Virus record (IMG/VR): IMGVR_UViG_3300014838_000024
Coordinates: 1-56,671 of that record
Origin: a virus
DNA: 56,671 nucleotides
Strand: one strand, 5' to 3'
In this document: piece after piece, positions 2,503-40,436 of the stretch
How the letters are laid out: each line of letters begins with the position of its first letter
How positions within the stretch are numbered: position 1 is the stretch's first letter
Notes under the pieces: generated by a model
The model's database searches: none
What the model was told of the DNA's origin: nothing
What the model saw: only the letters and a program-made list of their open reading frames with translations
Made by a program: the position numbers and the translations under genes

Positions 2503-3213
2503 ATGCTCGTTTCAGATCTCTTCAGTAAGCTCTCTTTCGGAGAGCTCTCGAACCTGGCTATGTCAGGCAATGGCAGTGGTACGATCGTCACGGCTCAACA
2601 GCCTAAGCTGATCGGTTATGCCAATGATGGCCTCCTTCGGTTGCACACGAAGTTCGTCCTCAAGGAGAACGATCTCCTGTTGCAGCTGTACGAGCACATC
2701 ACGTTCTATCACCTGATCCCGAGGTTCTCGATCCAATACACTCCTCCGGTTGGGACGGTTAATGAGCCTATTCGCTACATCTTGGATTTGCCGGAAGAGC
2801 CTTTCAATGATGAATTGCTGAAGGTTACTACAATATATGATCATCTTGGAATGGAGATCCCACTTAATAACGAAGAGAAGCATAATTCGTGCTTCACTCC
2901 ACAGGTAAAGCTGCTACAAGTTCCTAACCCGGTGGATGAAAAGTTCCTCACGGTTCGGTATCAACAGCGTCACGCCAAACTTACAGGTGACTTGGAGCAA
3001 TATATCTCTCTCCCTGTATCGCTCGAAGAGGCGCTGACATCGTTTATCGCGTTCAAAGTGTTCAGCCACATGAACACAGCTGATAGCAACTCGAAAGCTC
3101 AAGAGTTCAATCAGACGTTTGAACAGCTCTGTGGTGAAGTGACGGACAGGGATCTGGTCAGTTCCAGCATATCTCAGTCCAACATCCGGTTTAGTAGAGG
3201 AGGTTGGGTCTGA
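2503..3213 (+). CDS. Putative head-to-tail adaptor / tail tube-type structural protein
   Basis: 236 residues, starting at ATG 2503 behind GAGGA. It begins with a helical segment (residues 1-60), then a beta-rich middle, and ends in a helical stretch with no catalytic motif. Size and position right after the large terminase match the small adaptor proteins that join portal and tail tube in short-tailed phages. It ends at TGA 3211-3213, overlapping the next ATG by one base. The last codons contain the AGGAGG that serves the next gene. The role is inferred from context and general shape, not from a signature. Confidence 0.5.
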   Translation: MLVSDLFSKLSFGELSNLAMSGNGSGTIVTAQQPKLIGYANDGLLRLHTKFVLKENDLLLQLYEHITFYHLIPRFSIQYTPPVGTVNEPIRYILDLPEEPFNDELLKVTTIYDHLGMEIPLNNEEKHNSCFTPQVKLLQVPNPVDEKFLTVRYQQRHAKLTGDLEQYISLPVSLEEALTSFIAFKVFSHMNTADSNSKAQEFNQTFEQLCGEVTDRDLVSSSISQSNIRFSRGGWV

Positions 3214-3560
3214 TGGGACTATGCGAAACCACCAATTATTTCGGCGGCCTTGGAGGTGAAACCCCTGGCAGGCCATACAGCTATGGGCAGGGAGGTTATC
3301 TCCAACCCTATGGTGGCGCTCGGTTTGCGCCCATGGTTGACCGACTCATTGGCAATGCTTTCCCCACTGTGAAGTTCGTCGCCGACAACATGGATTATAT
3401 CCGGTATGTCGCGGACAACATGCTAGCGATCGTCACTCTGGCCGAATCCCAGGCAACTCAGATAGCCACGCTTCAAGCGCAGATATTGGTGCTTCAAGCT
3501 CTGGTGGTCCCGAGTTCTCCGACGATTGTAGCCCCTGCTCTCTCCATGAGTTCAGATTGA
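3213..3560 (+). CDS. Small Gly/Tyr-rich protein with C-terminal coiled coil
   Basis: 115 residues from ATG 3213, chosen over an upstream in-frame TTG at 3204 because AGGAGG (3198-3203) is correctly spaced for 3213 and the ATG overlaps the previous stop (TGATG). The N-terminal 35 residues are rich in Gly, Tyr and Pro. Residues about 50-95 have a heptad-like pattern (ESQATQIATLQAQILVLQAL), suggesting a trimeric coiled coil as found in fibre or spike attachment proteins. I do not recognise a family. Its place between the adaptor and the fibre block suggests a minor virion or fibre-attachment protein. Confidence 0.6.
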   Translation: MGLCETTNYFGGLGGETPGRPYSYGQGGYLQPYGGARFAPMVDRLIGNAFPTVKFVADNMDYIRYVADNMLAIVTLAESQATQIATLQAQILVLQALVVPSSPTIVAPALSMSSD

Positions 3561-3581
3561 GTTCGGATTGAGGAGAGCACA

Positions 3582-3953
3582 ATGGCCGAGGTGATCACGC
3601 CATATGAAACTCTGGAGGCGTTCCTCGTCGCTAATCCAGCGTCGAACCACTCCAGTTATGTGCTGACTCCTCCTCCAGCTCTCTTCTCCATTGGTGTCTA
3701 TGTCTCTGACGCTATACTTGAGCCGGTTCCGGGTGGGTTGAGTGTCTCTGTAGCAGATGCAGTGCTGGAACCTGTCGGTGGAACTGGTCCTCAACTAGCT
3801 TTTGGAGTCCCTTCACTCTCGTTCGCTTCCACAGCAGTGGGAGCCAATATCAACTTGACGGTGACAATCTCCAATCCGGGGACCGCCGATCTTGTGATCA
3901 GTTCACTGATCCCAACAGGTGACTTCACCGTCGCCACAATCGTAGAGGACTAA
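3582..3953 (+). CDS. Virion protein ending in the first half of an ASH (Hydin-like) domain
   Basis: 123 residues, ATG 3582 behind GGAGAG. The first ~75 residues hold two similar short segments (SDAILEPVPGGLSVS and ADAVLEPVGG). From about residue 80 it reads as the start of an ASPM-SPD-2-Hydin (ASH) beta-sandwich: SLSFASTAVG, then TVTISNPGTADLVISS, then TGDF. The ORF stops at TAA 3951-3953, halfway through that domain. The missing second half is found at the N-terminus of the ORF at 6332, 2.4 kb downstream. Either the domain is completed by another polypeptide or an ancestral gene was split by insertion of the two genes between. No catalytic residues are seen. Confidence 0.7.
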   Translation: MAEVITPYETLEAFLVANPASNHSSYVLTPPPALFSIGVYVSDAILEPVPGGLSVSVADAVLEPVGGTGPQLAFGVPSLSFASTAVGANINLTVTISNPGTADLVISSLIPTGDFTVATIVED

Positions 3954-3957
3954 AGTT

Positions 3958-4374
3958 ATGGCGAATGCAGTCTATCCGAACTTCCGTAATGTTCTGCTCT
4001 CTCCGGGTGTGAACCTGGCGACGGCAGCTATCAAAGCCTGTCTTGTCACGCTCACCACGGGTACGACCAACTACACCTACTCGGCGGCCCATGCCAATCT
4101 GAGCGATGTCGCTTCGGGTTCGATCTTCGTTGCTGGTGTGGCTCTCACCTCCTTGGCGGTTTCTGCTCAGGCGCTGACCGCTGCTTCTGTCGTGTGGCCT
4201 TCGGTCGCAGTATCCGGCTCCAAGAAAGCCGAAGCGATCATTCTCTACATCGACACCGGCACGGGGAGCACTTCGACCCTGATCGGCTACATCGACACGG
4301 CCACTGGTTTGCCGGCTACGCCAACGGGTCAGAACATCACGCTGAATTGGTCTTCGTCCGTCCTGACCGACTAA
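3958..4374 (+). CDS. Phage structural protein of a family common near tail fibres (function unknown)
   Basis: 138 residues, ATG 3958 with AGAGGA upstream. The sequence has the pattern of a small beta-rich phage protein I have seen beside tail and fibre genes: it opens AVYPNFRNVLL, then has YTYSAAHANLSDV, EAIILYIDTG and a C-terminal ATGLPATPTGQNITLNW. No enzymatic motif is present. It sits between the two halves of a split ASH domain, encoded by the genes at 3582 and 6332, so it may be part of the same fibre assembly. No function is claimed beyond a probable virion component. Confidence 0.65.
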   Translation: MANAVYPNFRNVLLSPGVNLATAAIKACLVTLTTGTTNYTYSAAHANLSDVASGSIFVAGVALTSLAVSAQALTAASVVWPSVAVSGSKKAEAIILYIDTGTGSTSTLIGYIDTATGLPATPTGQNITLNWSSSVLTD

Positions 4375-4404
4375 AGCTCGTCTCTCTGATCTGAAAACGA
4401 GCAC

Positions 4405-6330
4405 ATGACCGCACCCACAGTCGTAAGTTCTGCGTATCATCCTTGGACTGGCGCTTATCCGCTGGCCTCATCGAACACGTTTGACTCGACTGGCTGCGAT
4501 GGTGTGCTCGTTTTCTTTTTCACCCTTACGGGTGCTTCTTGGACACCTCCTCCGTCTTGTACCTATTTGGGACAGACGGCTACGCTTATTGGTCAGAGCT
4601 ATGTTTCGTCGCAGACTTCTGCGGGAACGCTCTATGCCTATATTGTTCGAGGTTTCACCCCCGGTTCCGGCACGCTTTCGGTCGCTCAGAGCTCGAATTA
4701 CGCTGACTCGGGCTGCGTCTACATCATTGGTCTGACTGGCACCCAAGCCACGCCAATTGGCAACTCGATCGTTCATGTTAGCGCCAGCCCGTCCGACACA
4801 CAGTCGGTCACTGCGTCTGCTGCCAATTCGCTCTTCATTGTGTTCGGTGGCGATGCTCAGGCCCCGTCGATCACGGTCACGCCTCCTTCGGGAGCGACAG
4901 CACTTCTCAACAACACCACAGCGACAAACAACCTGGGTAAGGTTCACAGCGTTACTGGTGTTTCTTCCGGAGCCAGTGTCTCCGAAACTTCGACGGCTCC
5001 TTACAACTACACTTCAACTGCCGTCATTGAAGTGCTTGGTTCTGGTGGTGGTTCTGGCATAAGCTTGACGCTGACGACACCTCTCTCGATTACGCCTGCC
5101 TTGGGCGCTGAGACGGTGACGATCCCGATCATTGTGAGCGCCAGTCCTCTGTCTTTGAGCCCGGCTCAGCTTTCAGGCAGTGTCACAGCACCTCTCGCCA
5201 TCACAACTTCGCCCTTGGCTTTGACCCTGGGACAAGGTGCAGGCACGGTTCTCGATCCTGTAGGGATCACGTCTGGACCCTTGAACCTTAGTGTTCTTCT
5301 TGGTTCAGGCGATAGCGTCACTCTCCCAATCATCATAAATTCTGGGCCTCTGAGTGTTCTCACTCAGCTGACGACACCGAGCTATTTGAGCTTCCCGCCG
5401 ATGGTGGCTGGGCCTCTTGCTTTGAGCGTTGTCCAAGACGCTGGAAATGTGATCCAGCCGCCTCAGATCTCGTCTGGGCCTCTCTCGTTGAGCGTTGGCA
5501 ATGGCGCTGGAAGCGTTCTCGTCACGCCGGTCATTTACTCCTACGGCCTAAATTTGAGTGTCGGGTTTATTCCCGGTGTTCCCAGTGTGATAACGCCTCC
5601 ACTGATCACCACGGCACCACTTTCGATCTCACCTCTGATGGACGCATCTGCGGTGATTGTTTTCCCTGACAACATCATCTCATGGCCATTGTCGTTGAGC
5701 ATAGGGTTCCCTGGACCCAGCAACGTAATCACTCCAGCCGTGATCACGGCTACGGCTTTGAATGTGGCTGTGAACAACCACGTTGGTGAAGTCGATGTCG
5801 CCATTGTGATCCAAGCTCCTCCTTTGTCGCTCTCGTTGGGGAACGGTTCGGGAAGCATCGCCATTCCGGTGGCTGTCTACAGTGCTCCCTTGAGTCTGAG
5901 TCTCGGGCTCACGCCGTTGAACATCATGGCACCAGTCTTGATCGTTGTGCCGCCTTTAAGTTTGTCTGTGCTCTCTTACACGGGTACGATCACAGACCCC
6001 TTGGGCATCTATGCAATCCCGCTGTCGCTCACCCTCGGGCTTCAGGTGGACACGATCATCCAGATCCCTCCTCCGATTCAAGCTCCGGCTTTGAATCTTG
6101 GGATCAATTTGACCCCTGGATACGTTTCGGACCCGGTGGGGATCTATACATTCCCGCTCTCTATATCCGTTGGTCTAGGTTCAGTGAACCTTCCAATCAA
6201 TCTCTTTGTCGATCCTCTGAAACTCTCCTGGGGTCGAGTTCCTCCTGTGTATGTTGATGCACCCAATCTGAACATCTTGGTCGGGCTTCAACATCCATTC
6301 ACTCATCCTCCGACAGTCGTAGTAGGTTAA
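4405..6330 (+). CDS. Repetitive fibre-like protein: N-terminal beta domain plus about 18 tandem 22-residue repeats
   Basis: 641 residues. Residues 1 to about 215 form a Ser/Thr/Gly-rich beta domain of the type found on secreted or virion surface proteins, ending in a GSGGGSG linker. From about residue 218 to the end the protein is a tandem array with period near 22 residues and consensus roughly PLSLSVGxGxGSVxxPxxIxS, about 18 copies, ending in a divergent copy. Such an array could form an extended rod or beta-solenoid. No catalytic residues are seen. It ends at TAA 6328-6330, two bases before the next ATG. The upstream gap has an inverted repeat (GCTCGT 4376-4381 / ACGAGC 4397-4402). Likely a tail fibre or spacer; the exact role is unknown. 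Confidence 0.75.
   Translation: MTAPTVVSSAYHPWTGAYPLASSNTFDSTGCDGVLVFFFTLTGASWTPPPSCTYLGQTATLIGQSYVSSQTSAGTLYAYIVRGFTPGSGTLSVAQSSNYADSGCVYIIGLTGTQATPIGNSIVHVSASPSDTQSVTASAANSLFIVFGGDAQAPSITVTPPSGATALLNNTTATNNLGKVHSVTGVSSGASVSETSTAPYNYTSTAVIEVLGSGGGSGISLTLTTPLSITPALGAETVTIPIIVSASPLSLSPAQLSGSVTAPLAITTSPLALTLGQGAGTVLDPVGITSGPLNLSVLLGSGDSVTLPIIINSGPLSVLTQLTTPSYLSFPPMVAGPLALSVVQDAGNVIQPPQISSGPLSLSVGNGAGSVLVTPVIYSYGLNLSVGFIPGVPSVITPPLITTAPLSISPLMDASAVIVFPDNIISWPLSLSIGFPGPSNVITPAVITATALNVAVNNHVGEVDVAIVIQAPPLSLSLGNGSGSIAIPVAVYSAPLSLSLGLTPLNIMAPVLIVVPPLSLSVLSYTGTITDPLGIYAIPLSLTLGLQVDTIIQIPPPIQAPALNLGINLTPGYVSDPVGIYTFPLSISVGLGSVNLPINLFVDPLKLSWGRVPPVYVDAPNLNILVGLQHPFTHPPTVVVG
5059..6270 (+). repeat. Tandem repeat region encoding ~18 copies of a 22-residue unit
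   Basis: The coding sequence repeats about every 66 bases at the protein level (xPLSLSxG…GSVxxPxxI). The DNA copies are diverged, so the array is old or selected at protein level rather than a recent slippage expansion. The array fills the C-terminal two thirds of the fibre-like gene. Confidence 0.8.
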
Positions 6331-6331
6331 C

Positions 6332-6583
6332 ATGACCTGGACTCCAGGAAGCGCAGTAACTCCTCCGCTTACAATTCCCGCTGGTGAGAGCGTCACTGTG
6401 ACGGTGAAGTTCACCCCAACGGTGGCTGGAGCTCAGACTGGCTCGCTTGGAATAATGTCCAATGCTCCTTCAAGTCCAGATGCTCTACCTTTGTCAGGTA
6501 CTGGAACCAGTGGGACTACACCTGCACCAGCAGTTTCCCTTTCGGTCACTTCGTTGACCTTCCCCAGCACGGCGGTTGGATAA
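6332..6583 (+). CDS. Small protein made of two half ASH domains
   Basis: 83 residues. Residues 1-55 (from MTWTPGSAV through VTVKFTPTVAGAQTG to LPLSGTG) match the second half of an ASH/Hydin-like domain. Residues 63-83 (SVTSLTFPSTAVG) match the first strands of another. The first half of domain 1 is the C-terminus of the ORF at 3582. The remainder of domain 2 begins the next ORF, which overlaps by one base (TAATG at 6581-6585) in a different frame. The start ATG 6332 follows GTAGG. A single ancestral ASH-ASH-enzyme protein, or a chain of proteins joined by shared domains, would explain this. It could also reflect a frameshift near 6581. Confidence 0.6.
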   Translation: MTWTPGSAVTPPLTIPAGESVTVTVKFTPTVAGAQTGSLGIMSNAPSSPDALPLSGTGTSGTTPAPAVSLSVTSLTFPSTAVG

Positions 6584-8010
6584 TGGCTACTTCGGCTTCT
6601 CAGCGGATCACGCTTACAAACACCGGCACTGCTCCCTTGGTGATCTCTGGGATCACAGCTACGGGTGATTTTGCCGATGTCACCGACTATTCCGTGTCGG
6701 TTCTCGCTGGCGGTGTCTGCCATATCGACGTGACTTTCACTCCCCTAGCTGTGGGTTCTCGAACAGGTACGATCTCAATCGCCTCCAATGCGCCTGGATC
6801 TCCTCATGTCGTGACCTTGGGAGGCACAGCAGTTCCTGCGGTTTTGCCAAGGGTCTCTGCCTTGGGAAATCAGTTCATGGCTGCCGGTGCTCCCATTCGT
6901 TTGAAGAGCATCAATTGGACTGGTGGCGAAGGCACCAATTATGCGCCTCATGCTTTGTGGGCTCGTTCTTGGAAGAGCCAGCTCGATCAGTTCAAAGCCA
7001 TGGGTTTCAATTGCTTGAGGTTCCAGCTTTCTGGTGACTTCTGTGCGAATCCCTTGATCACATCCACAGCTATTGATCCCACGAAAAACCCTGATGTTGT
7101 GGGCCTTACGACCTTGGCTTTCTTGGATCTGATTGTCGCCTACTGCAACACGATCGGCATGTATATCGTGCTTGATCATCACAGGTGTTTTGCCTCTGGA
7201 GGCACAGGCACCGATGGTTGGCCAATGGCCGGTGGGGCAACTGGCTCTTATAGCCAGGCCCAGTGGATCACCCACTGGTCAGTGCTCGCCACTCGATATG
7301 CTTCCAGCACGGTGGTCATTGGTGCTGACGTTCACAACGAGCCCTATGCGATTGAGTGGGCTTATTGGGCTCCGATGGTTGAAGCCTGCGGTAATGCTAT
7401 CTTGGCGATTGCGCCAAATTGGCTGATCTTCGTCGAGGGTGACACCAATTGGACTGGTGCAGCTTATTACCCCACAGCAACGCTGACGAGCGACTCGATC
7501 TGGTGGGGTGGGCAGCTTATTGGCGCTCAGCCTGGCAACCGACCCATTGTGCTCTCGTCTCCCAATCATGTGGTCTATGCGCCTCACGAGTATGGAACAT
7601 CTGTATCTGGCCAGACTTGGCTGGCAACCTCATCGAGCGCACCTACTGGGTGGCCAAACAACCTTCAACCGATGTGGAGACAGCATTGGGGTTGGGCTTT
7701 CGAACAGAACATCGCTCCGATCTGGGTTGGTGAGTTCGGAGGACAGTTTGGTTTCGCCAATGCGACAGGTGCAGCCAATGGCAATGCCAATGCACCCACA
7801 GAGATCGTCTGGCTACAGACACTCATGAAGTATTTGAATGGTGATTGGAACGGAGACGGCACCAATCATCTCACTGGTTCGCAGTTGGGTATGTCATTTG
7901 CCTACTGGAATGACATGCTGAGCGGTGATACAGGGTCTCTAGTCATCGACAACGATCTCACAACGCCTCAGAGTGGCAAACTAGCCCTCCTCACCCCGCT
8001 CATCCCGTAA
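6583..8010 (+). CDS. Virion-associated GH5-type endoglucanase with N-terminal partial ASH domain
   Basis: 475 residues. Residues 1-90 are the larger part of an ASH domain whose first strands lie in the preceding ORF. Residues about 95-475 are a glycoside hydrolase family 5 (beta/alpha)8 enzyme. Visible signatures are VIGADVHNEPY with the acid/base E253, WVGEFGG with the nucleophile E384, YIVLDHH (residues ~190-196) and VVYAPHEYG. GH5 enzymes of this kind cut internal beta-1,4 bonds of cellulose or similar glucans. No signal peptide is seen, as expected for a particle-bound enzyme made in the host cytosol. The start overlaps the upstream stop (TAATG). The GH5 assignment is strong; substrate is inferred from family and from the GH48 neighbour. 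Confidence 0.88.
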   Translation: MATSASQRITLTNTGTAPLVISGITATGDFADVTDYSVSVLAGGVCHIDVTFTPLAVGSRTGTISIASNAPGSPHVVTLGGTAVPAVLPRVSALGNQFMAAGAPIRLKSINWTGGEGTNYAPHALWARSWKSQLDQFKAMGFNCLRFQLSGDFCANPLITSTAIDPTKNPDVVGLTTLAFLDLIVAYCNTIGMYIVLDHHRCFASGGTGTDGWPMAGGATGSYSQAQWITHWSVLATRYASSTVVIGADVHNEPYAIEWAYWAPMVEACGNAILAIAPNWLIFVEGDTNWTGAAYYPTATLTSDSIWWGGQLIGAQPGNRPIVLSSPNHVVYAPHEYGTSVSGQTWLATSSSAPTGWPNNLQPMWRQHWGWAFEQNIAPIWVGEFGGQFGFANATGAANGNANAPTEIVWLQTLMKYLNGDWNGDGTNHLTGSQLGMSFAYWNDMLSGDTGSLVIDNDLTTPQSGKLALLTPLIP

Positions 8011-8019
8011 GAGGGCTCC

Positions 8020-8370
8020 ATGACAACCGCACAAGAAGCCAACTTCACTGTTACTCTGACCCCTGCTCCTACGGTTACAGTGCTGCTCAACTACACCACA
8101 AGGGATGGAACGGCCACTGCTGCCAGCGGAGCTTACACTTTAACTTCAGGAGTGTTGACCTTTGCTCCAGGTGAAACCGTGAAACACGTCATTGTTCCGG
8201 TCAGTCTGCCTCTTGCGCCAGGTTCTGCCGCTGAACTCTTCTATCTCGATGTGACTTGGCCTTCTGGTTCGGTTAACACGATCACACGCAGTCCAGGTAT
8301 TTGTAACCTTCCAGGCAATACAACTACCCCACTGCCTTCTGTCTCTATCTCTAGTCCTTCGGTGGTGTGA
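8020..8370 (+). CDS. Calx-beta domain protein, ending with the first strand of the next Calx-beta domain
   Basis: 116 residues, ATG 8020 behind GAGGG. It reads as a Calx-beta sandwich lacking its first strand: ANFTVTLTPAP, then NYTTRDGTATAASGAYTLTSG, then LTFAPGETVKHVIVPV. The last residues, LPSVSISSPSVV, are the characteristic first strand of a second Calx-beta domain, which continues at the start of the following ORF in the same frame after TGA TCC ATG. Upstream, the GH5 frame would also run in frame into this ORF through TAA 8008-8010 and the codons for Glu-Gly-Ser. It probably links or stacks fibre proteins. It might be translated separately, or as part of a fusion if stops are read through. 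Confidence 0.65.
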   Translation: MTTAQEANFTVTLTPAPTVTVLLNYTTRDGTATAASGAYTLTSGVLTFAPGETVKHVIVPVSLPLAPGSAAELFYLDVTWPSGSVNTITRSPGICNLPGNTTTPLPSVSISSPSVV

Positions 8371-8373
8371 TCC

Positions 8374-11199
8374 ATGACAACCTTCAGCACAACTCGTATT
8401 GCAAACTTCGTGGTCACGCTCAGTGCAGCGGCCACGGCAGCTTGTTCGGTCAATTACGCCACGGTCGATGGAACTGCCATTGGTGGAACCGACTACCAAG
8501 TGACCACGGGCGTTTTGAACTTCGCCATCGGTGACATCACCAAGACGATCCCTGTGCCTTTGAATGCACTTTCGGTTGGTGGGCTCACTTTCGATATGCT
8601 CTTGTCCTCTCCCGTGGGCTGCACGATCACCACTGGCGAAGAAGGCATCGCCACCATTGGCGTCGTCACTCCTCCGGTCACGTATTTGAGCCGGTTCGAA
8701 TGGACCTATAATACGCTCAAGCTGACCACGAACGGCTATTTTGGTCCCACCACGGGAGGATCTACCCTCGCCTTTCAGTGCCCTTACCATGCACGCGAAA
8801 ACGCTATTATCGTTGAAGCTCCTGACTGGTGCCATGAGAGCGTTTCCGAGACGATCTCTTTCTGGGCCAAACTGGAAGCCTGGAAGACGATTGTCGATGG
8901 CACAACCACAGGCATGGCTGCCTGCTGGGCTTCGATCGAGGCGAATTATATTCCCACTCCCACAGTTGGTCAGCTTTGGGGAGCTTATACTCCTGCTTCT
9001 CCCGCAGGTTATGAGCCTGACGCTGCCACGATCGCTTTGACCCCGGTTGATTACAATACGACAGTGACGGTTGGCGCTGATCCGCTCTACACCGAGCTCG
9101 TTGCCGCCTACACCGGCAAAGACGTGTATCTGATGCACTGGCTCTATGATGTGGACGGAGCCTATGGTTTCCATGGCGCTGATGGCACCACAAAGCTCAT
9201 GGCTCCGATCAACAACTACCAACGTGGCCCGGTCGAAGATGGCTTGGCCACGATCACGCACTGTTGCTACGAGGACTACAAGAACGGTGGTCAGCCTATT
9301 GGTGCGAGCGGGTTTGGCTTCTTGCCAATTTATGACCAGGCTCCTCCGACTTATTCGAGCAGCGCCAACCCCTACTCTTACAGCGCCCAGTGGACGTATT
9401 CTTGCGCCCCTGACGCTGAGAGTCGGGCTATTGGAGCCATCTATGCGGCTCACACGCTCTCTACGGCGGCAGGCATTGCACCTATTGCCACGAAGTCTAT
9501 GAAGATGGCCGATTATATGCGGTACGCCTTCTACGACAAGTACTTCGTGCCGATCCACAATTATGCTGGCACGCTCATGAATGGTGCTGGCAAACACTAT
9601 CTGCTCAGCTGGGGTGCTGGCTTTGGTGGCGGCATCATCGTGCCTCCAGGCACGGCTTCCTATTGGGGCTTTCGCATTGGTTGTTCAGAGGTTCACTTTG
9701 GGTACAACTGCGTCGATGTGGCTTATGCCTGCATGACGGGGCAGGATTTCGCGCCTCTGGGAGCCACAGCTGCTGCTGATTATGCGACATCCTTGGATCG
9801 ACAGCTTGAATTGATCCGTTGGCTTCAAAGCCCTGCTGGACCGATTGCTGGTGGTGTGACCTCCAACTGGAAGGGTGTCTATGGCACCCCGACAGATGCT
9901 CGTGTGAGCGCCCAGTTCTATGGGATGAACTACACTTATTCTCCGAGCTGGCATAACCCGCCTTCGAACAACTGGACTGGCTATCAAGCATGGGGCCTCG
10001 GAAAAGTCTCGCAGCTTTATGCGACAGTCTGCCAGAAGACCGACACAGTGTCGTTGAGCCTGATCACTCGCTGTGGTGTGATCTTGGATCTGTGGGTTCA
10101 GTGGTTCTACACCAATTGCGTAATGGACCTCGTGAACGGTTCGATGGCCTATCCGATCAACTCGTCCTGGACGAGCCCTACGGTTGTGAGTGGTCATACT
10201 TCGACAGTTGCCACAGCAGCGGGTGACTATGAGTATTTGCCCACGTTGAACTGGGACTCGACTGGAAATTACGCTACCTTCTGGTCGGCGAGTGCTGTCC
10301 CGAACCCGAACCTGCTCTATACGACCACATCGACTGGCTGGGATCCTGGAACAGCTGCTGGCTTTGCTCAGGTTCTCATCCAGTATGCTTATGCCAAGTC
10401 CAAGCTCACTGGTTCTTTGACGGGTATAATCCCCGGAGGAACAGCTACATTCCAACAAGTGCTGACCAAAGCCCAGCAAATGATGGAAGTTGTCTGGTGG
10501 AACCAAGATCCAGTTGGGTTCGGTTCCATTGGTTCGCTTGCTCTTCCGAGACTGAACGACATTCTCTGGATCCCGACTCAGTTTGGGACTGGTGCAATGC
10601 CTAATGGAGAAGTGCTCGCTCACGGTGTGACGACTTTCAAGAGCGCCAGAATGAGCCTCTATTCGACGACTGCCAACTGGTCTGGTGTGCAGACCTATCT
10701 GGCAGCAGTTGCAACGGCTTATCCGACGATCTCTGGTATGTGGGTGGCCAATAACGCTCCTGCTTTGAACGCTGCTTTGAATACGATCGCAGCTGACACG
10801 ACACTTCCGATCGCTCCTTCGGTCAACTACCATCGGTTCTGGAATGGTGCTGATGTGGCTGTGGCTTTCGCTATGTTCCAGCAGTATTTCCCGACACTGG
10901 CGGTGCCCACATTCACCACGCCTTTCTCGCCTTGCTGGGTCAATGCTCAGATCAATTACGCTGTGTTCTTGGCGACAGAGTATGGATCCACCACAACCAC
11001 CAGAACAGCAGCAAAAGCTGCTTGTCTGACGGCTTTGACCAGCACTCTAATGAGTGGAGCTCAGGTGACTGCCATGACAACGGCAATCAACACCTGTGTC
11101 GATGCTTGTGTGGCAGCTCTGGCCACCCCAGCGACCTATGCAACGGTGTCAGCAGCGGCAATTGCCACGGGTATTACGGCTGCACTCGCTGCAATGTAA
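8374..11199 (+). CDS. Virion-associated GH48-type cellobiohydrolase with N-terminal Calx-beta domain
   Basis: 941 residues. Residues 1-105 are a Calx-beta domain whose first strand is at the end of the previous ORF. Residues ~105-840 match glycoside hydrolase family 48, reducing-end processive cellobiohydrolases. Visible motifs are CPYHARENAIIVEAPDW with E148, SVSETISFW with E159 (eleven residues apart, the spacing of the two active-site glutamates in GH48), YLMHWLYDVDGAYGF, INNYQRGPVED, KHYLLSWGAGFGG, QFYGMNYTYSP followed by PPSNNWTGYQAWG, MPNGEVLAHG and NYHRFWNGADVA. Residues 840-941 are an Ala/Thr-rich helical tail. GH48 is normally bacterial and cellulosomal; I know of no common phage occurrence. 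The assignment is strong; activity is inferred. Confidence 0.9.
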   Translation: MTTFSTTRIANFVVTLSAAATAACSVNYATVDGTAIGGTDYQVTTGVLNFAIGDITKTIPVPLNALSVGGLTFDMLLSSPVGCTITTGEEGIATIGVVTPPVTYLSRFEWTYNTLKLTTNGYFGPTTGGSTLAFQCPYHARENAIIVEAPDWCHESVSETISFWAKLEAWKTIVDGTTTGMAACWASIEANYIPTPTVGQLWGAYTPASPAGYEPDAATIALTPVDYNTTVTVGADPLYTELVAAYTGKDVYLMHWLYDVDGAYGFHGADGTTKLMAPINNYQRGPVEDGLATITHCCYEDYKNGGQPIGASGFGFLPIYDQAPPTYSSSANPYSYSAQWTYSCAPDAESRAIGAIYAAHTLSTAAGIAPIATKSMKMADYMRYAFYDKYFVPIHNYAGTLMNGAGKHYLLSWGAGFGGGIIVPPGTASYWGFRIGCSEVHFGYNCVDVAYACMTGQDFAPLGATAAADYATSLDRQLELIRWLQSPAGPIAGGVTSNWKGVYGTPTDARVSAQFYGMNYTYSPSWHNPPSNNWTGYQAWGLGKVSQLYATVCQKTDTVSLSLITRCGVILDLWVQWFYTNCVMDLVNGSMAYPINSSWTSPTVVSGHTSTVATAAGDYEYLPTLNWDSTGNYATFWSASAVPNPNLLYTTTSTGWDPGTAAGFAQVLIQYAYAKSKLTGSLTGIIPGGTATFQQVLTKAQQMMEVVWWNQDPVGFGSIGSLALPRLNDILWIPTQFGTGAMPNGEVLAHGVTTFKSARMSLYSTTANWSGVQTYLAAVATAYPTISGMWVANNAPALNAALNTIAADTTLPIAPSVNYHRFWNGADVAVAFAMFQQYFPTLAVPTFTTPFSPCWVNAQINYAVFLATEYGSTTTTRTAAKAACLTALTSTLMSGAQVTAMTTAINTCVDACVAALATPATYATVSAAAIATGITAALAAM

Positions 11200-11228
11200 A
11201 CTGAGTTCTTCAAATATACGTCTAATTT

Positions 11229-11255
11229 GGGGGAAGCTTGTACAAAGCTTCCCCC
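11229..11255 (+). terminator. Strong hairpin after the GH48 gene, possible terminator
   Basis: Perfect 11-bp stem GGGGGAAGCTT (11229-11239) / AAGCTTCCCCC (11245-11255) with a GTACA loop, 30 bases after the GH48 stop. The following TAGTTATTTAG is only moderately T-rich, so it may be a weak or processing-type terminator. Confidence 0.6.
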
Positions 11256-11292
11256 TAGTTATTTAGAGTTGTACTCAAGGTCTATTGTACTT

Positions 11293-11329
11293 CTTCTGAA
11301 CCAGCTATAAGCAAATTGGTATTCAGAAG
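11293..11329. promoter_or_regulatory. Inverted repeat in the leader of the gene at 11342
   Basis: CTTCTGAA (11293-11300) and TTCAGAAG (11322-11329) form an 8-bp inverted repeat with inner CCA/TGG pairing, directly before the ribosome-binding site (AGAGGTG) of the next gene. The 143-base gap 11200-11341 is one of the longer non-coding stretches on the + strand, so a promoter or leader structure is plausible. I cannot identify a standard -35/-10 pair with confidence. Confidence 0.35.
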
Positions 11330-11341
11330 AGGTGAACCACA

Positions 11342-11713
11342 ATGGCTGATCAATGGCAGACAGGGGTAATACCTCCGAACGCAGCTGACGTGCAGACGAC
11401 CCCCAATGAGCTGACCGTTTTGACGGATGGCTCCATTGCAGGAGCGAACCTGGTTACGAACCAGAACGCTGCCATCGGAACTTCGGCGACACTCATTGTT
11501 GCTGCTCGTCCTGGAATTCCCGGTGTCGGGCGAAAGAGCCTCACGATCACCAACAAGGGTTCTAGCCCGGTCTTCATCGGCAATGCCGGTGTGACGGCTG
11601 CCACAGGCACCGAGATTCTGCCCGGCACCTCCAGAGATTTCATTACCTTCGTGGCGATTTACGGCGTCGTGGCTTCGGGCACTGGCTCTGTCGATTACGT
11701 CGAAATTTTCTGA
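11342..11713 (+). CDS. Small beta-rich virion protein, decoration-like
   Basis: 123 residues, ATG 11342 after AGAGGTG. Residues ~45-120 form a compact Thr/Gly/Val-rich beta domain (LIVAARPG, RKSLTITNKGSSPVFIGN, ATGTEILPGTSRDF), a pattern common in phage structural or decoration proteins. No catalytic motif or membrane segment is present. It follows a strong hairpin and opens a short cluster leading into the lysis genes. Specific role unknown. Confidence 0.6.
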   Translation: MADQWQTGVIPPNAADVQTTPNELTVLTDGSIAGANLVTNQNAAIGTSATLIVAARPGIPGVGRKSLTITNKGSSPVFIGNAGVTAATGTEILPGTSRDFITFVAIYGVVASGTGSVDYVEIF

Positions 11714-11725
11714 GGAGAACCTCCA

Positions 11726-12250
11726 ATGGCCGACGATACTTCAGGCGTGATCTCTGCTGATCCGATCATTGTCAACACTGGCATTGATCCAAATGGGATC
11801 GTTCGTGAGAACTCCCCTCGTCGTCAGAAGAGCGAGATTGTTTGGCGGGATGCCGCCAACAACATCTGGAAGACCAAGCTCTATGAGGGTGGCCCTACTG
11901 GTGGTGAAACCAGTGATCTTGAACTCGTGAGTTCAGCCACCCCTGGTGTTCTGCCGGCTGGTCCTGTGCCTGTTCCAGTTTGCCCGTATCCTCCGATGCT
12001 CATCCAAGAGCTCAAATACGTGCAGGATGTCGGCCTCAAGTCGAGGCTCTCTCCCAAGAGTACTTCTGGCGTCAAGACTGGCCAGATTTATTGGCGGGAT
12101 CTCGCCAACAACCTTTGGCTCACCGAGTCTTTCGAAGACATCGCCAAAGAGACCTTCTCCGTGGACACCCTTATTGCAGCTGCCGTTCAGGGGGTTCCCC
12201 CGGCTGTGCCTGTGGTGTCTCCCATTCCCACTTCATCTTCTACCAGCTGA
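11726..12250 (+). CDS. Virion or accessory protein with two WRDxANN repeats
   Basis: 174 residues, ATG 11726 behind GAGGAGA. It holds two related segments, IVWRDAANNIWKTKLYEGG (about residues 38-56) and IYWRDLANNLWLTESFED (about 121-138). Each is followed by a Thr/Val stretch and a Pro/Val-rich linker (PAGPVPVPV and PAVPVVSPIP), so the protein is an internal duplication of about 85 residues. The C-terminus is Ser/Thr-rich. I do not recognise a family; the composition suits a virion surface protein. Confidence 0.6.
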   Translation: MADDTSGVISADPIIVNTGIDPNGIVRENSPRRQKSEIVWRDAANNIWKTKLYEGGPTGGETSDLELVSSATPGVLPAGPVPVPVCPYPPMLIQELKYVQDVGLKSRLSPKSTSGVKTGQIYWRDLANNLWLTESFEDIAKETFSVDTLIAAAVQGVPPAVPVVSPIPTSSSTS

Positions 12251-12258
12251 GGATTACC

Positions 12259-13263
12259 ATGACCGATTGGGCCAAGATCGTACGAGGCATATCGCCCGGA
12301 GCTGCTGAACATATCGTTGCAATGATCGCTGATCATGCAGACGAAGTGTTCCCCAGATATGGGATCACTACTATTCGTCGTCAGGCTTGTGTTTTGGCTC
12401 ATATGAGTGTCGAGACACAGGGCTTCACCAAGCTCGAAGAGAACCTGAAATACTCGGCTGAGCGTTTGCTCGAAGTGTTCCCGACACACTTCAACCGTGA
12501 GCAGGCCGAAGCCTGTGCTCTCGTGCCGCAATTGATCGCCGATCGGGCTTACGATGGTCGAATGGGCAATCGTCCTGGTTCAGACGATGGCTGGTTGTTC
12601 AGAGGCAAAGGTCTCTGGGAATGTACTGGTCGCTCCAATGGAGAGCTCATCGCCAGGAAGTTGGGGATCACCCCGGATCAAGCAGCTGTTTGGCTGATCC
12701 ATCCTGACCATGCTCTCGAATGTGTCGGCGCTCTCTTTCAGATCCTGAAGGTTGCTCCTTCAGCCGACTCGGGCAATGTCACCGAGCAGACCAAACATAT
12801 CAATGGTGGTCTAAACGGCCTCTATGAGCGGGAATCCGCTTATACGAAGGCCCTTCGTCTTCTGAATTTGGAAGGTGCTAACAAGCGTGTTGCACTCACC
12901 GAACAAGACACTCCCGAACTTCAATCTTCCGTGAACGATCTCCGTGAAGACGGATCTCGCACCATCAAAGGAGCCGACCAGTCCCAGAGAGGATTGATTG
13001 GTGCCCTTGGTTCGGTTGGAGGCGCGACAGCGGCTCTCTCTCAGGTTCAAGACACTGCCAACCAGGTCCAGTCTGCTGTTCAGACTGTACAGTCTGGTGG
13101 TGCTCTTGTCCCTTGGGCTCAGACTCATTGGCCTTTGATCTTGGCCGGAGTGGCTACTGGTTTGGCGATCTTCTTCGCCTATCGGGCTTGGCAGGGTGCC
13201 AATGCCGTCAAGCTGGCTCGTGTCGATGACGCGAACACCGGCCTCAACCCCACGAGGATATGA
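12259..13263 (+). CDS. GH19-type endolysin with C-terminal membrane segment
   Basis: 334 residues from ATG 12259; a longer frame upstream is only overlap with the previous gene. Residues ~15-200 match the glycoside hydrolase 19 (chitinase-fold) endolysins. MSVETQGF carries the catalytic Glu (E52), followed by KLEENLKYSAERLLEVFPTHF-type sequence (about 58-78), then GDxxLFRGKG-like DGWLFRGKGLWECTGR and a DPDHALE-type region. Residues 200-285 are a linker with coiled-coil tendency. Residues ~290-307 (PLILAGVATGLAIFFAY) form a hydrophobic helix near the C-terminus. The enzyme cuts peptidoglycan glycan strands at lysis. The C-terminal anchor is unusual. The stop overlaps the spanin start (ATGA). 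Confidence 0.88.
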   Translation: MTDWAKIVRGISPGAAEHIVAMIADHADEVFPRYGITTIRRQACVLAHMSVETQGFTKLEENLKYSAERLLEVFPTHFNREQAEACALVPQLIADRAYDGRMGNRPGSDDGWLFRGKGLWECTGRSNGELIARKLGITPDQAAVWLIHPDHALECVGALFQILKVAPSADSGNVTEQTKHINGGLNGLYERESAYTKALRLLNLEGANKRVALTEQDTPELQSSVNDLREDGSRTIKGADQSQRGLIGALGSVGGATAALSQVQDTANQVQSAVQTVQSGGALVPWAQTHWPLILAGVATGLAIFFAYRAWQGANAVKLARVDDANTGLNPTRI

Positions 13264-36868: not shown

Positions 36869-36882
36869 ACGGGTGCTGACAT

Positions 36883-36919
36883 AAAAAAAGGGAGACGATC
36901 TGTAAAGATCATCTCCCTT
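36883..36919 (-). terminator. Intrinsic terminator at the end of the - strand block
   Basis: On the - strand AAGGGAGATGATC / GATCGTCTCCCTT (one wobble, 6-base loop) is followed by a run of T (the A tract 36883-36889 on +). It lies between the converging virion RNA polymerase and Tad2-like genes and may act in both directions, though only the - side has the T tract. Confidence 0.8.
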
Positions 36920-36929
36920 AATACTGGCT

Positions 36930-37010
36930 TTGAGTCGTTGGCCAAAATCACAAGTCCGTGGGCTAGACCTTCCAGACTATGATCCTGCTGCTCTACCCTC
37001 AATTAAGCGT
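36930..37010 (-). other. tRNA-like half (D arm plus CAU-type anticodon arm), probably degenerate
   Basis: Read on the - strand, the stretch GCTTAATTGAGGGTAGAGC fits a tRNA D arm (GCTT/GAGC). The next arm has a 7-base loop ATCATAG whose middle bases CAT follow a T, as in a tRNA anticodon loop, on a 4-bp stem CAGG/TCTG. I find no canonical T loop (TTCRA) and no matching acceptor stem, so this is not called a functional tRNA. It occupies the 120-base gap between the terminator and the Tad2-like gene. Confidence 0.2.
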
Positions 37011-37042
37011 GTTCCTTGCAGTCAGTTCACGCACCAGTTCGC

Positions 37043-37564
37043 TCAAGCCTCGCCAACAATGCACCAATCATGGGCCAGCATGTCAGTTTGCGAAGCGAGC
37101 CAACCCATGAGGATCTCGCCAGTGGCGGTCTTCATGGTGATGCACGGCAGCACTTTGGCAGAGCCATACGGCTGTGTTCGTGCATATTCGGCATTGTTCT
37201 CCGACCAGAACTCCTGATCGGTGATTATTTTCCCTTTGAGATGCCCACTCAACGAAAGCCACATGTCCTTACCGTTCCAACCAGAGCGAGAGATTTTCTT
37301 GCCTGCCTGAAGCGCATGGAGAGCATGGCCGAAGCTCATATTCCCCGAGCTCTTGTAAGAGCTCTCGAACACGTCCTTGGGCGACCAAGAGACGTAACCT
37401 TCACGTCCTTCGATGTTTGGTTTGCCGCCGTCCATGTATTCGACGAGATAGCCTTCCTCATCCGGGTCTTCGCCCCTGGGCGGAACCCATCCTCGGAAGA
37501 TGTTGTAATCGCCTTTGGTCATCGGCTCGGCACCAAGCAATTTGGTCCCATAGTAAAGTTTCAT
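37043..37564 (-). CDS. Tad2-like (DUF2829) protein, predicted anti-Thoeris, with N-terminal phage domain
   Basis: 173 residues from ATG 37564 (AGAGGA seven bases upstream; the longer frame would need TTG). Residues 1-72 are a phage-associated domain with GYLVEYMDGGKPN and GYVSWSPKDVFE. Residues 76-170 match DUF2829: MSFGHALHALQAGKKISRSGWNGKDMW-type sequence, ITMKTATGE, and GWLASQTDMLAHDW. Characterised DUF2829 proteins (Tad2) bind and sequester the cyclic signal of the Thoeris defence system. That role here is by homology only. The gene stands alone between two terminators at the end of the early block. Family call strong, function probable. Confidence 0.85.
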   Translation of the reverse strand: MKLYYGTKLLGAEPMTKGDYNIFRGWVPPRGEDPDEEGYLVEYMDGGKPNIEGREGYVSWSPKDVFESSYKSSGNMSFGHALHALQAGKKISRSGWNGKDMWLSLSGHLKGKIITDQEFWSENNAEYARTQPYGSAKVLPCITMKTATGEILMGWLASQTDMLAHDWCIVGEA

Positions 37565-37590
37565 TGATTTTCCTCTTGGTTCCCTCTTCA

Positions 37591-37619
37591 AAAGAAAACC
37601 CCCGAGATCACTCTCGGGG
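37591..37619 (-). terminator. Intrinsic terminator overlapping the end of the 67-residue gene
   Basis: On the - strand CCCCGAGA / TCTCGGGG (37600-37607 and 37612-37619), perfect 8 bp with a GTGA loop, then GTTTTCTTT. The stop codon of the upstream gene is in the loop. Confidence 0.85.
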
Positions 37620-37811
37620 ACTCATTTTCGTTTTGGCCTTGGGCTCAGATGAGAAGTCTTCGTCACCCCAGAACTTAAAGAATATGAAGAAAAGTCCTGC
37701 GATAACAAAACCTCCCGCGAGGAAGGGTGCCAATGCGAGGATGATCGCAGTAAGGGCCAACACTGCGATCACAGATAGCACCCCGGAGATCAGAGTGCAG
37801 ATGCCTCGCAT
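37608..37811 (-). CDS. Small two-span membrane protein
   Basis: 67 residues, ATG 37811 overlapping the previous stop (TAATG). Two hydrophobic helices at about residues 5-27 and 30-48 are followed by an acidic/basic hydrophilic tail (GDEDFSSEPKAKTKMSPRE). No family recognised. It is the last gene of the replication operon before a terminator. Small early membrane proteins in phages often modify host functions, but nothing here shows that. Confidence 0.6.
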   Translation of the reverse strand: MRGICTLISGVLSVIAVLALTAIILALAPFLAGGFVIAGLFFIFFKFWGDEDFSSEPKAKTKMSPRE

Positions 37812-38263
37812 TAGTTATTCTTCGGCTTGCCAAGACCCTTGAAGAGCGAACGACCCTGAGAGGCAGCAGCCTCAGCAGGTTGAGCAACACCGTCTCCCTG
37901 GGTTGCTTCGGCTGCAACCACAGTTTCAACCGAGGCAGTTTCCTCGAACGGAGCTTTCTCTTCCGGTTCCGGCTGTTCAACAACCGGAGCAGTGGTACGA
38001 GCCACAACAAACGGCTGCTGCCGAATCGGAAACTCCTCGACCTTAACCTCAGATCCCAAGAAGGGAGCCTTGTGTTCGGGCTTGATCGAGTTGATCGGCC
38101 TAATGTCGATCGTGGCCTTAAAGCCCTCACTACCACGAGTGGCAGAGATGTCGATGAGCATTTCCATGCCATCGTGGACCTTCATCTGACGACCAACATA
38201 GTCGCGGATGGCTTGTTCAATCTCGGACTGAACGATGGTGATTTGCACTGTTTTCCCCTTCAT
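37811..38263 (-). CDS. Unknown protein with acidic linker and basic C-terminal SLF tail
   Basis: 150 residues, ATG 38263 overlapping the resolvase stop (ATGA). Residues 1-75 look like a small alpha/beta domain (VQITIVQSEIEQAIRDYVG, then MLIDISATRGSEGFKATIDI). Residues 85-135 are a Glu/Val/Ala/Pro-rich linker. The end is GRSLFKGLGKPKNN, similar to the C-terminus of the SSB in the same operon (RKSLFGAKA). It could dock on a shared partner in the replication complex, which is inference. Family not recognised. Confidence 0.6.
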   Translation of the reverse strand: MKGKTVQITIVQSEIEQAIRDYVGRQMKVHDGMEMLIDISATRGSEGFKATIDIRPINSIKPEHKAPFLGSEVKVEEFPIRQQPFVVARTTAPVVEQPEPEEKAPFEETASVETVVAAEATQGDGVAQPAEAAASQGRSLFKGLGKPKNN

Positions 38264-38808
38264 AGGTATAAACGCATGAGTTGTTGGAACACTGGTGTGT
38301 TCACTCCTGCGTGAATTGCACCTAAAGCGTCAGCCACATGCTCCGCCGCTTGCGTGACCTTGCCCCTATATACCGGGAAATTGGCTTTGGGGTAAAGACT
38401 TTGCGCTTGAGCAATCATCTGGAGCTTTGAGGCATTCTTATTTCCGGTGAACGCCTTCTTCACCTCGGTTGCGGTGACTTCGATCAACTCGAAGTCTTTT
38501 GCGAGCATAGCTCCAAGAATTCCCACGCATACACCGTAGGAAGTCATTGCTCGCGCGGACTGTGACCCAACAGGAACCTCTACGAAGATGGCTTTAGCCC
38601 CCTCCGCTCGGGCAAAAGCAGCTGTTGCCAGCTGTTTAGCCACATTGAGATCCTTTGAGTTCTGTCGAACCTGTTTATGAGCCACTATATCAGGTTCCAG
38701 AACCCATAGAATTGGGTCATAGAGGAACCCTGTCGTTAGATCGAGTTCGCCTTTAGCTATGCCCCAATGGGTGAGGCTTGGATCAAATCCAACGACAGGT
38801 ATTCTCAT
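38260..38808 (-). CDS. RuvC-like Holliday junction resolvase
   Basis: 182 residues. RNase H-fold motifs in order: VVGFDPSLTHWG with catalytic Asp D9, IFVEVP with Glu (~residue 78), a KxAxTGNKNASK-type helix (VKKAFTGNKNASK), and the C-terminal AEHVADALGAIHA with Glu/Asp at about 157 and 161. Such enzymes cleave branched DNA before packaging. N4-like phages carry a homologue. It sits downstream of SSB with 33 bases between and overlaps the next gene by four. Confidence 0.85.
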   Translation of the reverse strand: MRIPVVGFDPSLTHWGIAKGELDLTTGFLYDPILWVLEPDIVAHKQVRQNSKDLNVAKQLATAAFARAEGAKAIFVEVPVGSQSARAMTSYGVCVGILGAMLAKDFELIEVTATEVKKAFTGNKNASKLQMIAQAQSLYPKANFPVYRGKVTQAAEHVADALGAIHAGVNTPVFQQLMRLYL

Positions 38809-38841
38809 TTCTCGCCAATCTTCATGCAGTTCTCGCCAAAG

Positions 38842-39603
38842 TTAGGCTTTGGCTCCGAAAAGGCTCTTTCGAGCCGGCGCTGCACCATTGGCCTGGGGCG
38901 GACCACTCACAGGCTTAGAGCTGGGACGACCAGGTGTTCCACCCACGCCGTCCTTGATAACCCGCTTATCACGGACTTTGCCTTTGTTGCGTTCGAGCCA
39001 AGCATCCCAGAAGATCCCCTTTTCGGCACCATTACGGGCCTCAGCGACGGTCATCCTGGTTTCGGTGTGGAACACCTTGTCGATGAAGTTGGTCTCACGC
39101 TCCTCACCAGTGGGAACGTATTCGCCGGAGCTGTCCTTGACGTTCTTGTTCTCGAGCTGCTTGACGATCGCCAAAGAAACGACCAGGCCAAGAAGACCTG
39201 TGAGCACAGGAACCGACTTGGGCAGTTCCTTTCTGGCGTCGTTGTCCCAGATCTTGACCATCTTATCCTCGCCTTCCTGCTCAGCCAGGGGCTTGCCGGA
39301 GGTCACGAGGCAGATGTCGTCGATGGTGGTGAAGCCGGGGAGAGGCACCTTCTTGGACTTGTCGTCCTTGTTGAGGAAGAAGTTCTCGCCCTTCTTGTTG
39401 GTGATGTAGATGGTCTCCCGATACTCCTTGCCGTCATGCTCGACGATGAGCGTGACCGAACGAGCGCCCGAAGCAGCCTGGCCGGCATAGGCCATCTTGA
39501 TCGGACCCGTGTAAATATCGGTTTCGAGGACGGAAAATCCGCCCAGACGATCCTGGGACTCTTCCAGACCGTCGTTCTTCAGTTCGCCAAACAGGCTGCT
39601 CAT
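38842..39603 (-). CDS. Single-stranded DNA-binding protein (N4 gp45-like)
   Basis: 253 residues. Its OB-fold-like beta-rich core spans about residues 25-150 (FSVLETDIYTGPIKMAYAG, RETIYITNKKGENFFLN, FTTIDDICLVTSG), followed by a helical segment and a Gly/Pro/Ser linker to the tail RKSLFGAKA. In N4 the SSB is needed for replication and recombination and also activates host RNA polymerase at late promoters. It lies with the ATPase, primase and nuclease genes in the N4 order. The tail is basic, not the acidic tip of bacterial SSBs. Ribosome-binding site AGAGAAAG upstream. Confidence 0.8.
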   Translation of the reverse strand: MSSLFGELKNDGLEESQDRLGGFSVLETDIYTGPIKMAYAGQAASGARSVTLIVEHDGKEYRETIYITNKKGENFFLNKDDKSKKVPLPGFTTIDDICLVTSGKPLAEQEGEDKMVKIWDNDARKELPKSVPVLTGLLGLVVSLAIVKQLENKNVKDSSGEYVPTGEERETNFIDKVFHTETRMTVAEARNGAEKGIFWDAWLERNKGKVRDKRVIKDGVGGTPGRPSSKPVSGPPQANGAAPARKSLFGAKA

Positions 39604-39641
39604 TGTATATCGCTTTCTCTAAGTTGAAGTTGGTGGGGTGA

Positions 39642-40373
39642 TTACGCCCCGTAGAAGGCTGAAAGGTGATCCAAGAGGATCTGGCAATCGTTGTCGATAA
39701 AGGTCTGTTTCTTTTCAAACATACCCATAGGTGATCGGATCTTCTCGCCAATAGTCGTCTTGGTCGGACGGGTTTGGAAGACGTGCTTGTAGCCAAGCTC
39801 TTCGTCTTCCTCAGAGATGTGCAAGAGCTCTGAATGATAATCCTTCAGATCCTTGAGCACCATCTTCTTGGTGGCTACGACTGTCGAAAAGTAGGACTCG
39901 ACGCCATTGTTTTTGAGAGAGCCCTTTATGGGCACACTCGTCTTTATGTCCATGGCCTTCTCATCCAACTCGTCTTTGACGTGAGCTGTGATGATGACGG
40001 GCTTGCCGAAGCGAACGACTTTCTCCTGCATCAGCACTTTGAAGAACTGGGCGAAGTCTCCCCAGGCTTTCATCGTGTTGGTGCTTGGAAGCACATATTG
40101 GGTCTCGAGCATATCCATAAGGAACGTGAGCGAATCCAAGACGATGCCGTCGATTGCAGGGTTCCCTGTGGCGTAGTCGAACGCTTCATGGACCTGATAG
40201 GGATCGTCGATTCGATATGGCTGGAATTTGTTCTTGAACGGAAGACGCTTTCCAGCCTCGGTGTTCAAGTGCATCCATTTTTCTTGGTTCCGGATGTTTC
40301 GCAAGCTGGCGCTCTTTCCAGTTGCTGAATACCCCACGACCAGGATCAGTTGGTCGTTGACTTCACTTGACAT
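39642..40373 (-). CDS. RecA-fold ATPase (Sak4-like), recombination/replication
   Basis: 243 residues from ATG 40373; a TTG-initiated longer frame is less likely. Walker A is GYSATGKS (14-21), a Walker B-like GIVLDSLTFL follows at about residues 89-98, and a PVIITAHVKDE segment suits the sensor region. Phage Sak4-type ATPases promote single-strand annealing with the phage SSB, and the next gene is the SSB. The same position in N4 holds a replication gene of this class. The 63-base gap before it can pair GACCCCG with the CGGGGT at the ribosome-binding site. Confidence 0.8.
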   Translation of the reverse strand: MSSEVNDQLILVVGYSATGKSASLRNIRNQEKWMHLNTEAGKRLPFKNKFQPYRIDDPYQVHEAFDYATGNPAIDGIVLDSLTFLMDMLETQYVLPSTNTMKAWGDFAQFFKVLMQEKVVRFGKPVIITAHVKDELDEKAMDIKTSVPIKGSLKNNGVESYFSTVVATKKMVLKDLKDYHSELLHISEEDEELGYKHVFQTRPTKTTIGEKIRSPMGMFEKKQTFIDNDCQILLDHLSAFYGA

Positions 40374-40436
40374 TTTGTAACCCCGTTTTTGAGGAGGAGA
40401 TCCCAAACCAAATTAAGGCTCGGGGTCTCTTCAGCT

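Follow-up and report, generated by a model that had tools for sequence, protein, structure and literature searches.

Adjacent GH5 and GH48 cellulases in an N4-like podovirus and their possible attachment to the particle through split Ig-like domains

Virions of Erwinia phage S6 reportedly degrade cellulose, a result attributed to Knecht et al. 2022. PMC9544554 describes cellulose as the first receptor of S6, which the phage degrades, gp95 as an active cellulase that cuts carboxymethylcellulose, and gp094 and gp095 as predicted exo- and endo-enzymes, respectively. According to this commentary, the S6 enzymes could be attached to the particle by their N-terminal domains; their place there is left open. 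Adjacent GH5 and GH48 genes are also carried by the myoviruses Hena1 and SNUABM_01 (Henunavirus; gp204 GH5, gp203 GH48 and gp202), whose GH5 forms a fusion with a baseplate protein. Among systems of other kinds, cellulosomes gather GH5 and GH48 enzymes on a scaffold via small docking modules (cohesin-dockerin), while in chaperone-usher pili an incomplete Ig-like fold is completed by a strand of the neighbouring subunit (donor-strand exchange).

The window, i.e., the whole stretch of DNA analysed here, has a length of 56,671 nucleotides (IMG/VR record IMGVR_UViG_3300014838_000024). The source record is a 56.7-kb N4-like podovirus (Schitoviridae), whose terminase shows 77% identity with that of Pseudomonas phage Zuri and 73% with that of N4, whose portal protein has relatives across the Schitoviridae and which encodes a virion RNA polymerase of 3754 aa. 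The stretch that separates the virion RNA polymerase gene from the DNA primase gene (36869-40437) shows no clear gene, and ORF 38767-39627 within it is without a Pfam match. The features of the locus are as follows.

3582-3953, + strand: anchor-like ORF of 123 aa; the N-x-S-S signature at its N-terminus is also that of S6-type GH5 proteins, and two free Calx-beta A-strand motifs in tandem are followed by the first ASH half.
3690-3725, + strand: donor A-strand motif 1 (IGVYVSDAILEP), identified by sequence and aligned with the donor position in L038 4902-5255.
3738-3773, + strand: donor A-strand motif 2 (LSVSVADAVLEP), from the donor motif scan.
3795-3950, + strand: first half of a split ASH domain (Pfam), with the same truncation in L038 and L053.
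3958-4374, + strand: conserved 138-aa tail-module protein with no function assigned (phrog_644, E=1e-23); an orthologue lies at the same place in L038 and L053.
4405-6330, + strand: beta-repeat shaft protein with a minor-tail-like N-terminus and ~20-residue repeats (weak phrog_553 tail match).
6332-6583, + strand: second half of the split ASH domain (ASH 60-97/98, 27.6 bits); its C-terminus is the A-strand of the ASH domain continued in the GH5 ORF, and the split at 6583 is also present in L033/the Rhodoblastus prophage.
6583-8010, + strand: GH5 endoglucanase of the E1/CelE2 type; its catalytic residues are E253 and E384, and the ASH domain at its N-terminus is without the first strand (Pfam, solved relatives, alignment).
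8020-8370, + strand: adaptor, a Calx-beta domain without its A-strand and with a C-terminal free A-strand (8329-8367, PLPSVSISSPSVV; Pfam, own Calx-beta model, donor motif scan).
8374-11199, + strand: GH48 cellulase with a Calx-beta domain without its A-strand (8389-8658), the GH48 domain from ~8683, E159 and D347, and an Ala/Thr-rich C-terminal extension (Pfam, solved relatives, alignment).

The repeats of the shaft form a long run of the type xSxPLxLSVGxGxG..., and a similar but different repeat shaft precedes GH5 in L053. In L038, the shaft is continuous with the half-ASH and GH5 (5686-7989).

The product of 6583-8010 matched the Pfam family Cellulase (PF00150, E=1.7e-37), with CelE2 and endocellulase E1 as the best solved relatives (E down to 9e-64), while that of 8374-11199 matched Glyco_hydro_48 (PF02011, E=2e-128) and solved cellobiohydrolases (E down to 7e-84). 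Besides the family profile, each enzyme carries its catalytic residues. Both GH5 glutamates, E253 (NEP) and E384 (GEFG), are invariant in 11 aligned phage GH5 proteins; the GH48 acid E159 and base D347 are invariant in 8 aligned phage GH48s and equivalent to E155 and D331 of S6 gp94, residues named in PMC9544554. The initial annotation had placed a GH5 enzyme with these two glutamates and a GH48 enzyme in one operon without signal peptides, and this was borne out: the GH5, 8020-8370 and GH48 ORFs all lie head-to-tail on the + strand with gaps <10 nt, and no N-terminal signal sequence is visible. Its wording that GH5 lies two ORFs before GH48 is also right, one ORF (8020-8370) standing between them. 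The Ig-like N-terminal domains on both enzymes had been missed; these are ASH on GH5 and Calx-beta on GH48, as on 8020-8370, and they are cut by ORF boundaries. The window GH48 moreover ends in an Ala/Thr-rich extension of ~90 residues (10924-11196) that is absent from 7/7 aligned Erwinia phage GH48s.

The pair was also sought in related phage genomes, a check proposed with the initial annotation. By tblastn, a GH48 gene was detected in 17 Erwinia phage records, with a GH5 gene alongside in 17/17. In S6, phiEaP8, Fifi067, Pastis and Fifi011, the pair occupies the same slot as in the window, flanked by the lysis genes and a gene for a 30-kDa virion structural protein, and the window likewise holds adjacent GH5 and GH48 genes in a Schitoviridae tail module. 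The earlier statement that no system of this kind had been described was therefore wrong, as the same adjacent pair stands in the same slot in S6 (gp95/gp94) and its relatives; the window's cellulases add a further case to a system already described in 2022. The enzymes, their catalytic residues and the synteny with S6 are evident from sequence comparison. The proposal of a virion cellulase system itself stands as the best reading, because in S6, with its orthologous, syntenic pair, the phage degrades cellulose as its first receptor and gp95 is an active cellulase, and not as a case without precedent; the window pair would be virion-borne cellulases orthologous to S6 gp95 (GH5) and gp94 (GH48).

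The window shares with S6 (also with phiEaP8, Fifi067 and Pastis) the virus family, the slot, the GH5-then-GH48 order and the catalytic residues, as well as ASH on GH5, Calx-beta on GH48 and a free A-strand motif, which in the S6 type lies within the GH5 protein. However, a single S6 polypeptide unites GH5 with the anchor, the ASH domains and the donor motif, which is the only donor, whereas the window distributes the same parts among several ORFs and has tandem donors plus an additional adaptor. Henunavirus shares the adjacent pair, two tandem donor-like motifs and a small Calx protein that, as in window 8020-8370, is A-less and ends in a donor, but these phages are myoviruses with GH5 fused to the baseplate protein and with the adaptor gene after GH48. 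The adaptor-type design is found in L038 (7989-8333), Hena1 gp202 and SNUABM_01 gp073.

Our own Calx-beta model was built from 29 bacterial domains, and for 27 of them the match begins at model position 1-3. In the 18 phage domains of this family (the window plus 11 phage records), by contrast, it begins without exception at position 14-19, at protein residue 2-7. An in-frame stop lies 1-8 codons upstream of most acceptors of the named phages, and 2 and 4 codons upstream of the window's two; because of this stop, the A-strand is not encodable upstream in most acceptors. Judged by their sequences, the phage Calx-beta acceptors, including the N-terminal domains of the window's GH48 and adaptor, are without the first strand. 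The Pfam start position was dropped as evidence of truncation, because in intact bacterial Calx-beta domains, too, the match begins at 16-23. With a phage acceptor domain as the tblastn query, 155 phage records were hit, phi92-like phages among them, and the Calx consensus gave no tblastn match against phages. Single-sequence searches of IMG/VR with the window proteins returned nothing; alignment queries were required.

When a matrix derived from the first strands of bacterial domains was applied, a lone motif of the xLSISDAVLxx type stood out in Erwinia phage GH5 proteins. In the donor scan, all 8-mers of a locus (roughly 3000-8000) were scored, with the tested lineage left out of training and with 20 shuffles. 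A matching free strand on a partner protein was the top-scoring 8-mer of the locus in 14/20 lineages, usually scoring above all 20 shuffles. With the window left out, the motif in ORF 3582-3953 ranked first of 8013 8-mers, at 16.5 bits against a 20-shuffle maximum of 14.7. Hits at the C-terminus of LASTA gp08, in the L058 GH5 protein and at the C-terminus of Hena1 gp202 were obtained blind, as these were never in training, and the control phage Zuri gave no donor motif in the same scan. A top-ranked donor was missing in 6/20 lineages, none being visible in L053 and L052, and the C-terminal donors of phi92, PEp14, L056 and Parlo were ranked lower or missed by the scan. Tandem motifs occur in window ORF 3582-3953, L038, L036, L032, L035, L055 and Hena1; in L043 (GGSGGTVNVSISDAVLG, directly followed by the stop), L047, Parlo, PEp14 and window 8020-8370 the donor stands at the very C-terminus, often past a linker rich in Gly or Pro. 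The number of donors does not always match that of acceptors. For the Calx domain of the window GH48, the candidate donor peptides are TTPLPSVSISSPSVV and those of ORF 3582. In the 360-kb viral contig L055 (6576-12248), a phage GH5 protein bearing three donor motifs in tandem lies ahead of a Calx-beta enzyme.

The small tail protein PEp14_20 has a conserved anchor of 93 residues, which offers a natural control for the donor motif. Where a Calx-beta acceptor enzyme is present, namely in PEp14, Pavtok, LASTA, ZX1, Parlo, L043, L056 and one of the two L036 copies, this anchor continues into a linker and a lone strand. The same anchor leads into a longer fibre protein in Itty13, POI1126, PBC5, BcepIL02 and RothD, for which no Calx-beta domain above noise was detected in the regions examined near the anchor; L052, without an acceptor enzyme, has the anchor without a tail. 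The Calx-beta enzyme beside the donor anchor in L043 (9071-11974) has a fold like GH116 beta-glucosidase (E about 2e-4), and its counterparts in PEp14, LASTA and Parlo are annotated only as tail protein. Two-gene lateral tail fibres were seen in phi92 (L011 5116-10160) and JohannJBalmer (L068 616-5576). There, gp142 opens with an A-less Calx-beta domain and gp141 ends in an A-strand-like peptide, as in the other loci, but the enzymes are different and the motif is only third-ranked in the locus.

The last 52 residues of ORF 3582-3953 correspond to ASH positions 12-56/98 (18.1 bits, Pfam). When the two ASH halves of the window were joined, the score reached 40.7 bits (12-97), compared with 18.1 and 27.6 bits apart. 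The L038 halves cover positions 3-52 and 54-99 of a related model and scored 23.3 and 22.2 bits, and 41.4 bits joined; L053 shows the same split with weaker scores. In the window, L038 and L053, the halves lie on different proteins with an ORF of 138-144 aa between them. Moreover, the GH5 ORF of the window starts one strand into an ASH domain, the missing strand being the end of the preceding ORF.

From these features, it is probable that the virion would carry the cellulase pair with GH48 and the adaptor held by donor-strand complementation in trans, and with the split ASH domains joining anchor, shaft and GH5. On its way to a deeper receptor, the particle would bind and cut the cellulose coat around the host. 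GH48 and the adaptor 8020-8370 would be fixed to the particle by donor strands, i.e., free strands that may complete their Calx-beta folds, two in tandem on ORF 3582-3953 and one at the adaptor C-terminus. The likely chain would then run from anchor to adaptor to GH48, with GH5 on the shaft, as a small 'phage cellulosome'. The split layout recurs in independent contigs; strand insertion in trans, presence in the virion and the order of assembly are what we infer. Like a cellulosome, the system would gather GH5 and GH48, but it would sit on a virus particle, and no cohesin or dockerin was detected by Pfam in ORFs 2503-13263. The likeness to chaperone-usher pili concerns the way of working only and no homology is claimed; here, the folds are Calx-beta and ASH, enzymes take the place of pilins, and no pilin, chaperone or usher families were found with Pfam and PHROGs among the tail-module ORFs searched.

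In the AlphaFold model of window chain 8020-8685 (the stop read as Gly), which matched the tandem Calx-beta fold of NCX1 (CBD12, E=5.8e-9), donor strands were built at 107-110 and 114-116 with a low pLDDT of about 50-58. In the L043 read-through chain, comprising the acceptor enzyme and the anchor with its C-terminal donor, confidence was good for the acceptor domain and low for the donor strand. Over both chains, the donor segments were assigned as strand at pLDDT of about 40-58. Joining donor to acceptor gave no gain in score with Pfam Calx-beta, and small gains for the window's own donors with our own model. Such results would also suit an S6-like virion pair whose Calx-beta and ASH pieces are ordinary domains, stable alone or self-completed by a strand swap in a homo-oligomer or by the adaptor's C-terminal strand folding back, with no donation between proteins: AlphaFold builds the B-G Calx domain without the A-strand at pLDDT 75-88, and joining hardly lifts the Calx scores of the window pair. 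This reading, however, leaves unexplained both the conserved lone A-strand that recurs in linkers and C-termini beside acceptors and the placement of ASH halves on different proteins in three lineages, and we regard it as rather unlikely, though worth serious consideration.

That the enzymes act off the virion, freeing progeny from a cellulose matrix or releasing sugar instead of serving adsorption, is improbable. The lysis cassette (endolysin ~12259-13263) does adjoin the cellulase genes, but the enzymes are fused to virion-type modules, as in the GH5-baseplate fusion of Hena1 and SNUABM_01, and S6 infection requires cellulose according to PMC9544554.

The ORF boundaries might also be read through or frameshifted, so that larger fusions such as GH5-Calx-Calx-GH48 are made as well. 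The stretch 6583-11199 is one frame interrupted only by TAA at 8008 and TGA at 8368, and GH5 and GH48 share one frame in S6 and Fifi067 too. Yet the GH5 and GH48 frames differ in EaP8, Hena1 and Pastis, and good ribosome-binding sites precede several starts (GAGG before 8020; AAGGAG before S6 gp94). L033 is broken as the window is at 6583, but in the other frame (+1 against -1), so that the break is shared and a programmed frameshift is not. Since the frames differ among relatives, programmed frameshift or readthrough was rejected as a conserved feature, and we consider such fusions very unlikely. The 6330/6332 break, continuous in L038 and L053, could be one indel. It is nevertheless scarcely credible that assembly or sequencing errors or gene decay produced the broken domains, since independent contigs and a bacterial genome show the remaining breaks as well, the rest of the window is intact, the 3754-aa virion RNA polymerase included, and each piece keeps its start codon and catalytic residues.

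Bacterial genomes were searched with the GH48 alignment query, and the phage-type GH48 with an N-terminal Calx-beta domain was present in two of them, Rhodoblastus acidophilus DSM 142 and Azotobacter beijerinckii DSM 378. IMG/VR contig L033 and the locus in Rhodoblastus are identical. The GH5 + GH48 loci of both species (L069 and L111, respectively) are probably prophages; they hold phage-type pairs with the same kind of donor and acceptor features. The cellulose synthase BcsA was found above the curated cut-off in both pair-carrying genomes (n=2). Among the other genomes of these orders it is uncommon, with a match in 26/149 in one order and 12/145 in the other, 11 of these 12 passing the cut-off. 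With only two genomes to compare, the trend agrees with cellulose as the target. A cellulose-producing alphaproteobacterial host, as initially suggested, is plausible for the window phage from the close GH5/GH48 relative in the probable Rhodoblastus acidophilus prophage, whose host has BcsA, but the nearest relatives of its terminase and portal are, in turn, Pseudomonas, Sinorhizobium and Erwinia phages.

No relevant account of phage docking by donor strands or Calx-beta domains turned up in a search of open-access papers, and the split-domain docking, if confirmed, would be the novel part, with a reach beyond cellulases. On balance, we lean towards a plug-and-socket code shared by N4-like, Bcep22-like, phi92-like and Henunavirus phages. 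The sockets would be A-less Calx-beta domains on depolymerases or cellulases, and the plugs 1-3 bare strands, in tandem linkers or at C-termini, on tail anchors or baseplate proteins; adaptors with both socket and plug would lengthen the chain, and split ASH domains would form a second code. If this is true, sets of virion enzymes could be swapped by the exchange of one gene. The window pair supports cellulose as a phage receptor outside Erwinia. If the docking proposal is right, it would answer how and where the S6 cellulases attach, and would provide a testable and possibly general rule for the mounting and exchange of phage depolymerases.
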